This document shows positions 13,881 through 23,803 of a stretch of 23,884 nucleotides of DNA, piece by piece (the first letter of the stretch is position 1; each line of letters begins with the position of its first letter). This DNA comes from a virus, in the IMG/VR virus record IMGVR_UViG_3300006916_000384, positions 1 through 23,884 of that record; one strand, given 5' to 3'. The translations under genes were made by a program, and so were the position numbers. Below the pieces are notes generated by a model that made no database searches, had not been told where the DNA came from, and saw only the letters and a list, made by a program, of their open reading frames with translations.

Positions 13881-14453
13881 ATGAGTAATTTGTTCCAAGA
13901 AATGGAAGCCGACCAAGCCAAAGCTTCCGACATTGATAATATCGATGATTCTGGCTTGAAATCTGTGGCAGAGGTTGCCCGGCAAATCACCGAAACCGAA
14001 GCCAAACTAGCACATCACGAACAAGAGCTAAAAGATATTAAAAAGAAGCTCTTGAAACTTACCGACGAAGATCTACCCGCGTTACTACAAGAAATCGGTG
14101 TATCCGAATTTAAGCTAGATGATGGTAGCGAAGTCAAAGTGCGTCCTACTTATGGGGCACACATCAAGGTAGAAAACAAGGAAAAAGCTTTTAACTGGCT
14201 TAGAGAAAACGGCTTTGATGACATCATCAAGAACGTTATTTCTTTCCAGTTTGGCCGTGGTGACGATAATGACGCAAGCCGTTTAATGGAAATGGCTAGT
14301 GAGCAAGGTTACGACCCACTGCAGAAGCAAGACGTGCATTCACAAACACTGAAAGCCTTTGTAAAAGAACGCATCGAAAAGGGTGAGGAATTACCCATGG
14401 ATCTATTTGGAGCGTTTGTTGGACAGAGAGCAACTGTAAGGAGAGTCAAATAA
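13881..14453 (+). CDS. Conserved phage protein of the replication block, coiled-coil
   Basis: This 190-aa protein starts at ATG 13881, about 7 nt after a strong AAAGGAG. Longer in-frame starts upstream are rejected because they would run through the promoter and into the helicase gene. Residues about 25-65 form a predicted coiled coil (ARQITETEAKLAHHEQELKD, then a Lys-rich stretch). A compact domain follows with FKLDDGSEVKVRPTYGAHI and NWLRENGFDDIIKNVISFQF. A similar architecture occurs in marine phage proteins next to SSB-like genes, but I know of no assigned activity. As the first gene after the strong promoter and coupled by TAATG to the SSB-like gene, it is probably an abundant early protein. 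A role in replication or in modulating host functions is inference. Confidence 0.75.
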   Translation: MSNLFQEMEADQAKASDIDNIDDSGLKSVAEVARQITETEAKLAHHEQELKDIKKKLLKLTDEDLPALLQEIGVSEFKLDDGSEVKVRPTYGAHIKVENKEKAFNWLRENGFDDIIKNVISFQFGRGDDNDASRLMEMASEQGYDPLQKQDVHSQTLKAFVKERIEKGEELPMDLFGAFVGQRATVRRVK

Positions 14454-21253: not shown

Positions 21254-21420
21254 TGTGGACAATCCATAAACGTCCCGTCGTAAAAGGAAACGTCGTAGTT
21301 TAAATCCAACACACAATCAGGGCATACGGCACACATCAGCGTTCCACGCTCCCCGGCCATGGCGTCTTCTATTAAAGGGTGGAGCTCAAAAAAGAAACTG
21401 CACTTAGTGCACTCAAACAT
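21250..21420 (-). CDS. Small cysteine-rich (zinc-ribbon) protein
   Basis: This 56-aa frame runs from the ATG complementary to 21418-21420. GGAAG lies 8 nt upstream, inside the end of the HTH gene. A longer version starting at 21474 is possible but has no clear ribosome binding site and would overlap the HTH gene much more. Cysteines at 4, 7, 30, 33, 36 and 54 give CTKC and CAVCPDC knuckles typical of a zinc ribbon. Its stop overlaps the endolysin start (ATGA), so it is co-translated with the lysis gene. Function is not evident; a small regulatory or nucleic-acid-binding role is possible. Confidence 0.72.
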   Translation of the reverse strand: MFECTKCSFFFELHPLIEDAMAGERGTLMCAVCPDCVLDLNYDVSFYDGTFMDCPQ

Positions 21421-21574
21421 TTTTGCGTCTTCCACGGTATAGCCAATCACGGATGGTATCAATCGGGATGTCATAGTTTTTCGCCAACCATTTTAACGAT
21501 CGTTTCTCTATTGTACGCTGATAGCGTATTTCTTCGACTAATTCTAAAGGGTATTTTGGGGGTCTGCCTGCCAT
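21413..21574 (-). CDS. Small HTH protein with AT-hook-like N-terminus (53 aa)
   Basis: The ATG complementary to 21572-21574 has a good TTAGGA site about 7 nt upstream. The frame encodes 53 residues: an AT-hook-like GRPPK at 3-7, a helix LELVEEIRYQ, then SLKWLAKNYDIPIDTIRDWL (26-45), a clear helix-turn-helix of the homeodomain-like/terminase-small-subunit type, and a basic GRRKN end. Its 3' end overlaps the zinc-ribbon start by 8 nt. It is therefore the first gene of the minus operon ending in the endolysin, and could regulate that operon or the opposing promoter region at 21644. The DNA-binding motif is clear; the target is inference. Confidence 0.75.
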   Translation of the reverse strand: MAGRPPKYPLELVEEIRYQRTIEKRSLKWLAKNYDIPIDTIRDWLYRGRRKNV

Positions 21575-21643
21575 GTTTATTCCTAATTGGTGAAAAAAGG
21601 CAAATTTACCACAAGGATTATTTAATTTCTATGTGATTTTTAG

Positions 21644-21672
21644 TTGACAACACCTTTTTTGGGGTTCAATAT
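21644..21672 (+). promoter_or_regulatory. Sigma70-like promoter for a small RNA/leader
   Basis: TTGACA (21644-21649) is a perfect -35, followed by a 17-bp spacer and CAATAT (21667-21672), a 3/6 match to -10. The predicted start near 21679 coincides with the first base of an 8-bp stem-loop. The -35 lies inside the palindrome GTTGACAAC (21643-21651), so the minus strand also shows TTGTCA, but no good minus-strand -10 follows. Confidence 0.55.
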
Positions 21673-21678
21673 CCCTAT

Positions 21679-21758
21679 TACAGACTTCTCCTAAATAAAC
21701 GCAGTCTGTATTTTCCTTTTAGTTGGTTTGATTGCCCCCTTCACAGGGGGCTTTTTTT
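21679..21758 (+). ncRNA. Candidate small RNA or attenuated leader, about 80 nt
   Basis: From the predicted start, TACAGACT (21679-21686) pairs perfectly with AGTCTGTA (21703-21710), enclosing a 16-nt loop that begins with TCTCCT. A U-rich linker of about 23 nt follows, then an intrinsic terminator with seven Ts (21734-21758). Promoter, 5' stem-loop with exposed loop, linker and terminator is the standard layout of a bacterial trans-acting small RNA. The loop TCTCCT is complementary to AGGAGA, which occurs in the ribosome binding sites before 2968, 13881, 14453, 21796, 22390 and 22541. Because no promoter lies between the terminator and the gene at 21796, it could instead be an attenuator whose read-through feeds that operon. 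No protein-coding frame fits. Confidence 0.55.
21734..21758 (+). terminator. Rho-independent terminator upstream of the small-gene cluster
   Basis: GCCCCCT (21734-21740) and AGGGGGC (21745-21751) form a 7-bp stem with loop TCAC, followed by TTTTTTT (21752-21758). It ends 37 nt before the ATG at 21796. Confidence 0.88.
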
Positions 21759-21795
21759 CCAAACAAACACACACATTTTATGAGAGGAGAGACTC

Positions 21796-21984
21796 ATGCA
21801 CAAAGATAAAGAAGCAGTGCTCAAAAAACGCATCTGTGAAATCCTTACCGGTCTTTCTAAGCCCGAAACAAAAATATCTGACATCATCGCTGACCTGATG
21901 ATCTTAGTCTACGAATGCGAAAGAAACGCCCTTAAAGAGTCAAAAGACGCGCTTCTGAAAACAATAGAGGATATGAAGGCATGA
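21796..21984 (+). CDS. Small hypothetical protein (62 aa)
   Basis: ATG 21796 follows a very strong purine-rich site (GAGAGGAGAGA). The 62-aa product is mostly charged and helical: KEAVLKKRICEILTGLSKPE, then DIIADLMILVYECERNALKE and a Lys-rich end. No family was recognised. It is first in a five-gene run of overlapping small ORFs and probably depends on read-through of the terminator just upstream, or on a promoter further away. The stop overlaps the next start (ATGA). Confidence 0.72.
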   Translation: MHKDKEAVLKKRICEILTGLSKPETKISDIIADLMILVYECERNALKESKDALLKTIEDMKA

Positions 21985-22762: not shown

Positions 22763-22876
22763 TCGCCTATCATCCGATCTCCCCCCAACGGCCTTTCCAT
22801 ATTCTCTCCTCTTTCACGTTCGATCTGGTTAGGTTGTTGGGGGACCACTCCCCTGAAACCCGCGTAATACGTGGGG
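22763..22876 (+). other. Non-coding region with competing GC-rich hairpins
   Basis: No gene is visible. CCCCCAAC (22782-22789) can pair with GTTGGGGG (22836-22843), while GGGGA (22840-22844) can instead pair with TCCCC (22849-22853) around loop CCAC. AACCC near 22857 can pair with GGGTT ending at 22878, which reaches the -35 of the next promoter. A pyrimidine tract TCTCTCCTCT (22803-22812) is the exact complement of the ribosome binding site at 21783-21792. There is no T-run, so no standard terminator. Confidence 0.4.
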
Positions 22877-22931: not shown

Positions 22932-22961
22932 CGATCTTTAACAACTAAAAAGGAAAATACT

Positions 22962-23372
22962 ATGAGATACTTTGTAAAAAGTAGTAACTACCTATGGGGT
23001 GACGACAAAATTCTGCAGTGCGCACTGATCAAGTGCCGCCTGTCAGAACAAAGCCGGGACAAAGCCTACTCCGACGCAATTGAATGGTTTATGGACAATC
23101 CCGAAACACCGTTGTCAAAACATCTGGACGAATGCCTCGAAATGCGGGCCGACGACCTCCGACCTCTCGAGGAAAGAGAAACCGCCGAAGCCATCATTTA
23201 CGAGTACGACGATCAGATGTGGAAGCTTCATGAGGTCTGCGATTATACCGGCTCACCCACTTGGGAATGGATCGGCAAAGGAAAAATGCCAGATCGCAAA
23301 ACCAACCATCCGTGGCTAAGAAAAACGCACGTCGAAATCTACGCTTGCGGAAGGCCAAAGGGGGTGAAGTGA
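22962..23372 (+). CDS. Hypothetical protein (136 aa)
   Basis: ATG 22962 follows AAAAAGGAAAA and is the first gene after the strong promoter at 22877, so early high expression is likely. The 136-aa product starts MRYFVKSSNYLWGDDKILQC and is rich in Trp, Asp and Glu. Helical sections include KAYSDAIEWFMDNPE and HLDECLEMRADDLRPLEE. The C-terminal part ends with THVEIYACGRPKGVK. There is no membrane segment or metal-site pattern. I do not recognise it. Small acidic proteins expressed from a strong host-type promoter in phages often target host functions, but this is only an inference from expression context. TGATG couples it to the next gene. Confidence 0.78.
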   Translation: MRYFVKSSNYLWGDDKILQCALIKCRLSEQSRDKAYSDAIEWFMDNPETPLSKHLDECLEMRADDLRPLEERETAEAIIYEYDDQMWKLHEVCDYTGSPTWEWIGKGKMPDRKTNHPWLRKTHVEIYACGRPKGVK

Positions 23373-23594: not shown

Positions 23595-23633
23595 TATTTT
23601 CAAGAAATAAAAAAAAATAAAAATGAAAAAAAG

Positions 23634-23708
23634 TGCCGTAACCGGTGTATCCGTGTAACCCAATGGCTCGGAGCCCACGGATCACGGTGCTTTGAGTGGG
23701 TTACGGCA
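23634..23708. repeat. Nested inverted-repeat element (75 nt)
   Basis: The outer arms TGCCGTAACC (23634-23643) and GGTTACGGCA (23699-23708) are a perfect 10-bp inverted repeat. Inside, ATCCGTG (23649-23655) pairs with CACGGAT (23676-23682), and GGCT (23665-23668) pairs with AGCC (23672-23675). A second GTAACCC (23655-23661) could pair with the same right arm, GGGTTAC (23698-23704), giving alternative folds. The element is not followed by a T-run, lies between an intrinsic terminator and an A/T-rich region, and has no coding frame. It resembles an origin, a processed structured RNA or a recombination site; which one cannot be decided here. Confidence 0.6.
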
Positions 23709-23720
23709 GTGCTTCAAAAA

Positions 23721-23750
23721 GGTATACAGGTATACACCACTTATACAGTG
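23721..23750. repeat. GGTATACA tandem repeat with adjacent inverted repeat
   Basis: GGTATACA occurs twice in tandem (23721-23728 and 23729-23736). TATACA recurs at 23742-23747 inside CACT/AGTG arms (23738-23741 and 23747-23750). The spaced copies look like iteron or operator half-sites. Confidence 0.45.
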
Positions 23751-23780
23751 AATCAAAACTCGTTAAGGGGGGTCAGAAAG

Positions 23781-23803
23781 TTTTTTTTTTTTTTTTTTTT
23801 TTT
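23781..23803 (+). repeat. Homopolymer of 23 T
   Basis: An uninterrupted run of 23 T residues follows a G6 stretch (23767-23772) and GTCAGAAAG. Such a run is exceptional in a compact phage genome; its exact length is likely unreliable. Confidence 0.8.

Follow-up and report, generated by a model that had tools for sequence, protein, structure and literature searches.

The window analyzed here is a 23.9-kb piece of the genome of an uncultured tailed phage, taken from a virus record, and its gene content includes tail genes, a helicase, a primase, and a family-A DNA polymerase. By polymerase comparison, the nearest named phage is DSL-LC04 (53% identity), whose host is given as Gammaproteobacteria; the Pelagibacter phages HTVC023P and HTVC027P share about 49% polymerase identity with the window phage. 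An RNA element lies in a 221-nt gap between a small HTH-like gene on the minus strand (21413-21574, 53 aa) and an operon of small genes that begins at 21796. The HTH-like gene is divergent from the RNA and marks the locus across the lineage. Its product is lineage-specific, ranges from 45 to 53 aa, and has no significant Pfam or PHROG family. Searches of isolated phages with the DNA and the HTH protein gave zero matches, and thus no cultured relative that carries the RNA. A search of bacterial genomes with the HTH protein also gave zero matches, and thus no link to a host or prophage.

The element occupies the plus strand from 21644 to 21758. The initial annotation had described a perfect -35, a predicted start on the first base of an 8-bp stem, a 16-nt loop opening with TCTCCT, and an intrinsic terminator, and direct reading of the sequence bears out each of these. 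The -35 hexamer, TTGACA (21644-21649), overlaps a motif that recurs throughout the lineage in the divergent promoter (resembling TNTGTGA..AACAAGTTGA). Most of the relatives whose locus was read, whether or not they have the RNA, show a hexamer of the TTGA or TTGAC type in the corresponding position. In most relatives, the divergent promoter also carries a ATGTGANAANCAAGTTGA-like motif, which may be an operator for the HTH-like protein. After a 17-nt spacer comes CAATAT (21667-21672), the sole candidate -10 at this spacing, which escaped a consensus scan because it has only three of six consensus matches. Given this weak -10, the exact transcript start is a prediction, presumably 21679, the first base of the stem. 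The 5' hairpin (21679-21710) pairs TACAGACT (21679-21686) with AGTCTGTA (21703-21710), as indicated by folding and by a compensatory change, and encloses the 16-nt loop (21687-21702). The loop starts with UCUCCU (21687-21692), a motif of the anti-Shine-Dalgarno (anti-SD) type, of which CUCC is retained in all relatives. The linker GUAUUUUCCUUUU (21708-21720), whose first 3 nt lie within the stem, is predicted to pair with gene 22962 at its ribosome-binding site (RBS). The intrinsic terminator (21734-21758) consists of the stem-loop GCCCCC-TTCACA-GGGGGC (21734-21751) and seven T residues that reach 21758; a terminator scan placed it among its two strongest. Signals for a promoter and a terminator of its own are therefore present in the element, and both are conserved, the -10 being weak. 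The 81-nt unit has a folding energy of -23.0 kcal/mol, compared to -14.0 +/- 2.8 kcal/mol for dinucleotide shuffles (z = -3.2), and 1 of 200 shuffles folded equally well. A leader ORF and a tRNA were looked for at the element, and neither was found. Rfam 15 covariance models gave no match at 21640-21800, even at E values up to 5.

Two related phages, represented by L084/L165 and L001/L326, carry the same unit and together with the window phage form what we call class 1. L001 was found by polymerase search (94% polymerase identity), and L084, with its near-identical copies L085 and L086, by a search with the HTH alignment (92% HTH identity). In L084 and L001 the whole unit has the position, order, and spacing seen in the window and is divergent from the HTH-like gene. 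The -10 reads CAATAT, CAGTAT, or CACCAT in the three phages. Between the window stem (TACAGACT/AGTCTGTA) and that of L084 (TACTGACT/AGTCAGTA), both sides have changed and pairing is retained; one A-U pair has become U-A in L084/L165, a compensatory change, and the end pair U-A has become U-G in L001. These pairs were compared by hand, as an automatic MAFFT alignment put the L001 hairpin in the wrong place. Loop length varies (16, 13, and about 28 nt) while CUCC is constant throughout, the UUUUCCUUUU portion of the linker is invariant, and the terminator is unchanged or nearly so. The same anatomy at the same locus, the compensatory stem change, and the constant CUCC argue for more than chance, and the initial annotation's small-RNA reading, which it held open to refutation by a stem and loop not conserved in related phages, finds the stem retained with a compensatory change and the loop retained in its core. 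A strict class-1 hairpin pattern recovered only the known relative and L083, the latter a chance match inside coding sequence; a looser pattern recovered L001, the L084, L085, and L086 copies, and otherwise unrelated sequence.

Candidate targets of the UCUCCU loop are AGGAGA-type RBSs. AGGAGA precedes the genes at 2968, 13881, 14453, 21796, 22390, and 22541, as the initial annotation had listed. Among these sites are the RBS of the Pam3 gp34-like gene 14453 (14440-14445), whose orthologues in three class-2 contigs, described below, carry AAGGAGCTA, and that of 21796, the first gene of the downstream operon (21785-21790), which could also pair with the linker if transcripts read through. These matches span only 6 to 7 nt. 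Fourteen of the 15 class-1 GGAG-type RBSs continue with A, compared to 50% in relatives that lack the RNA (P = 9e-4, kinship ignored). We considered this usage as proof of loop targeting and downgraded it, since half of the relatives' RBSs do likewise. Because GGAGA is the usual RBS sequence of the lineage, the UCUCCU loop alone is weak evidence, and its fit to AGGAGA-type RBSs is no more than suggestive of loop targeting; the earlier caution that the anti-SD match could be a by-product of canonical SD sites was justified for the class of the window phage. Extended to the whole element, this caution becomes an alternative explanation, namely a promoter-proximal terminator with an incidental hairpin, in which the matches reflect pyrimidine-rich RNA facing purine-rich RBSs. 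The common use of GGAGA is what such a by-product would predict; the compensatory stem change and a loop core that stays constant while loop length changes are not.

A stronger case for an RBS-matched loop comes from more distant phages rather than from the class of the window. In phages that share the divergent HTH-like gene, the locus holds either nothing, with the promoter leading straight into a gene (for example, L002, L005, and L012), or an analogous unit composed of a promoter, a hairpin with UAGCUCC in its loop, and a terminator. This hairpin-plus-terminator arrangement, which we call class 2, occupies the locus in well over a dozen contigs (L066, L044, L045, L146, L147, L150, L163, L134, and most of L167-L188). 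The -10 in class-2 phages is TATACT, TATTAT, or TACTAT. Class-2 stems covary (CCAAG/CUUGG, ACCAA/UUGGU, and UCUAG/CUAGA) around the invariant UAGCUCC. In L066 and in the L146 group, as in the window, the hairpin begins about at the predicted transcript start, and L134 and L044 have it further downstream. Judged by position and design, class 2 appears to be an analogue of class 1, and the two are likely homologous. Searching 257 Gb of bacterial genomes with the class-2 pattern gave 35 matches, and on inspection none had the promoter-hairpin-terminator layout; two Halieaceae contigs, at first suspected to represent hosts, matched the pattern without the anatomy. In L044, L045, L167, and similar contigs, an ORF for a small basic protein (MAAKKDKKWIQKA...) with no visible SD starts immediately past the T-run that ends the class-2 terminator.

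The RBSs of class-2 phages match this loop beyond the SD core. The 9-nt sequence AAGGAGCTA, the complement of UAGCUCCUU, was present in 9 of 10 contigs searched, in some of which the sole match was the antisense of the RNA gene itself; the reversed control pattern was found twice. Wherever AAGGAGCTA was read outside the RNA gene, an ATG followed within a few bases. GGAGCTA is the exact complement of the UAGCUCC loop, and GGAG-type RBSs continue with CTA at 19 of 79 sites in seven class-2 contigs, compared to 6 of 432 at related loci that lack the RNA (Fisher P = 4e-12, although the class-2 contigs are mutually related and the RBS counts are not fully independent). GGAGCTA RBSs precede about ten unrelated gene families in several contigs, including those of the Pam3 gp34-like protein, a C5 cytosine methylase, and a GP88-like protein. 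The RNA loop can select for the CTA extension; the universal anti-SD tail of 16S rRNA cannot, and does not explain it. The gp34-like gene illustrates the correspondence: its RBS is GGAGCTA in three class-2 contigs with AAGGAGCTA (L318, L320, and L322) and GGAGAG in class-1 phages, and neither motif occurs in the RNA-less relatives read. The class-2 contigs L324 and L327 are exceptions, with no matching RBS change at this gene.

In the window phage, the best-supported pairing is predicted to involve the linker, not the anti-SD loop. Target prediction against RBSs, which the initial annotation had proposed as a check, identified a 13-nt complement of the linker, AAAAGGAAAATAC (22948-22960, plus strand), in the RBS directly before the ATG at 22962. 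The gene that begins there (22962-23372, plus strand) encodes a 136-aa protein with no Pfam or PHROG family and was found only in close relatives. With the RNA gene excluded, neither strand of the window has a longer complement to the RNA body than these 13 nt; 3 of 2000 shuffled RNAs (about 0.15%) reached 13 nt against any of 25 RBSs. That a few shuffles do so is compatible with a by-product, as is the low complexity of the linker, which limits the weight of the complementarity argument.

Comparison with relatives strengthens the prediction. The match is retained in L165. A search with the 22962 protein found L332, which has the flanking gene order of the window and is likely a fragment of another relative; it shares a metagenome with L001, and that the two belong to one genome is only presumed. 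The L001 linker, GUGUUUUCCUUUUG, and the L332 RBS, CAAAAGGAAAACGC, form 12 Watson-Crick pairs and, in addition, one G-U and one G-C pair. Relative to the window, an A-U pair has been replaced by G-C, with both sides changed. Cognate linker-RBS duplexes have energies of -21.3, -19.2, and -22.9 kcal/mol, compared to -17.8 and -17.3 kcal/mol for swapped combinations. RBS sites are not top-ranked in sliding-window duplex energies, where 22941 comes about sixteenth (-22.4 kcal/mol, compared to -24.0 kcal/mol for the best); this genome-wide ranking is uninformative because GC-rich chance duplexes score higher. With linker and target changing together, and with the class-2 enrichment, we regard a mere by-product as improbable. 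L332 has two tandem, diverged genes of the 22962 type (517-1340), of which only the first has an RBS matching the L001 linker.

The initial annotation had also suggested that the element is an attenuated leader of the 21796 operon. In this cis-acting arrangement, most transcripts would stop at 21758, and in those that read through, the linker would mask the first RBS. Consistent with this, and as noted previously, the interval from 21758 to 21796 has no further sigma-70-like promoter, and in a 120-nt fold UUUUCCUUUU is paired to the AUGAGAGGAGA region, sequences that are identical in L084/L165. The element nevertheless folds as two independent hairpins, with neither the alternative antiterminator fold nor the leader peptide of a classical attenuator. 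In L001, the downstream RBS (GAGAG) now matches poorly, yet the linker and loop core are retained, and in the class-2 phages L146 and L066 the stretch beyond the terminator is long enough for a promoter of its own and has promoter-like sequence. A cis leader also leaves unexplained both the set of GGAGCTA RBSs and the change of the linker in step with a distant gene's RBS. It accounts for less than a small RNA does, and we consider it unlikely; L001 argues against cis action as the main role, and the 120-nt fold makes it a possible second role besides action in trans.

We therefore favor a small RNA that acts in trans. The anatomy, its conservation, the stem covariation, the complementarities, the RBS enrichment, and the linker-target co-change, all established by sequence comparison, support this reading well, and complementarity to separately encoded target mRNAs has been maintained in evolution, as expected of a trans-acting small RNA. 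The element probably encodes a phage small RNA that masks the RBSs of several phage genes. The promoter common to the lineage, beside the HTH-like gene, would drive an RNA of approximately 80 nt that extends from its own promoter to its own terminator and would pair in trans over the RBSs of phage mRNAs, blocking translation start. In the window phage, the linker GUAUUUUCCUUUU would pair with the RBS of 22962, and the UCUCCU loop may add the AGGAGA-type RBSs of 13881, 14453, 21796, 22390, and 22541. The equivalent RNA of distant relatives would act through its UAGCUCC loop on the GGAGCTA set. Transcription, repression as the sign of regulation, its timing, control by the HTH-like protein, and any involvement of an RNA chaperone are inferred.

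The initial annotation had allowed for RBSs of either phage or host mRNAs. Bacteria have small RNAs with anti-SD loops for which many mRNAs are established or proposed targets (PMC7717549, PMC3927594), and phage RNAs that act on host genes are known (PMC12197685), so the element might be a decoy whose anti-SD loop reduces translation of those host mRNAs that have strong SD sites. Complementarity to phage RBSs, however, extends past the SD core (GGAGCTA; GGAAAATAC) and points to phage targets, which makes a host-directed decoy quite improbable. Regulation of phage RBSs is the favored part of that proposal, given the extended complementarity; the loop by itself carries little weight in the window phage.

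The predicted RNA resembles several known regulators in part. The c4 antisense RNA of phages P1 and P7 has sequences, likely in loops, that are complementary to an RBS region and block translation of ant (PMC12197685). Like c4, the RNA proposed here is phage-encoded and would pair with the RBS of a phage gene. Unlike c4, which targets the ant mRNA, it appears to have several unrelated RBSs that share one seed, and it has a gene of its own, running from promoter to terminator, that diverges from an HTH-like gene. In Alphaproteobacteria, SmelA075 and SmelA099, with CCUCCUCCC loops, and Bartonella BbsR14, with TTCCTCCTAA, are proposed to pair with RBSs (PMC3927594, PMC7717549) and likewise present an anti-SD motif in hairpin loops. 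Those RNAs are host-encoded and of the CCUCC type, with three to four hairpins in SmelA075 and SmelA099 and two in BbsR14, whereas the present RNA is phage-borne, has one such hairpin with UCUCC or UAGCUCC, and has predicted phage targets. With its single hairpin and the loop UCUCCUAAAUAAACGC, it falls outside the CCUCCUCCC family, which is defined by CCUCCUCCC loops on each of three or four hairpins. PreS of phage lambda, described as acting on host dnaN, and VpdS of VP882, described as acting on phage and host RNAs, are both Hfq-dependent (PMC12197685); they too are phage-encoded regulators of RNAs encoded elsewhere, and a sequence relationship was checked via Rfam only. The phage small RNAs reviewed in the open-access literature were mostly found singly, in temperate phages of model bacteria. 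Against that literature, a seed-matched set of RBSs spanning multiple phage genes, with apparent co-evolution, would be unusual.

We speculate, more tentatively, that these phages use a private RBS code, in which one small RNA per phage has a seed that defines, by exact extended complementarity, the phage genes to be silenced together, and RBSs of unrelated genes across the genome change with the seed. One branch would use GGAGCTA, and another GGAAAATAC or GGAAAACGC. Sequence comparison by itself points, in these uncultured marine phages, to a small RNA whose regulon comprises several phage genes and whose target sites co-evolve. A seed-matched RBS set could provide a simple, testable rule for spotting such regulators in metagenomic viruses, and the regulators themselves a possible layer of timing control at translation.

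Further elements lie nearby. A second long hairpin occupies the 3' UTR of 22541 (22782-22843 in the window, 4511-4572 in L165, and about 350-430 in L332). Its stem covaries, and its loop is of the anti-SD type (AUUCUCUCCUCU in the window and L165, GUCCUCCC in L332). In the window and L165, this loop is a 10-11-nt complement of the RBS of 21796, which suggests that the two elements may cross-regulate. L165, as well as L330 and L331, has an extra promoter-terminator unit (L165 4578-4685; TTGACA-17-TATATT ... AACCTCGTTTCGACGGGGTTTTTT) that is absent from the window; it lies between the second hairpin and the promoter of the 22962 homologue and is possibly another small RNA module. Finally, non-coding DNA at 23600-23800 of the window is kept across the lineage and contains A-tracts, TATATATA, GTAACC/GGTTAC repeats, and a long T-tract, an arrangement that looks like a replication origin or something similar.
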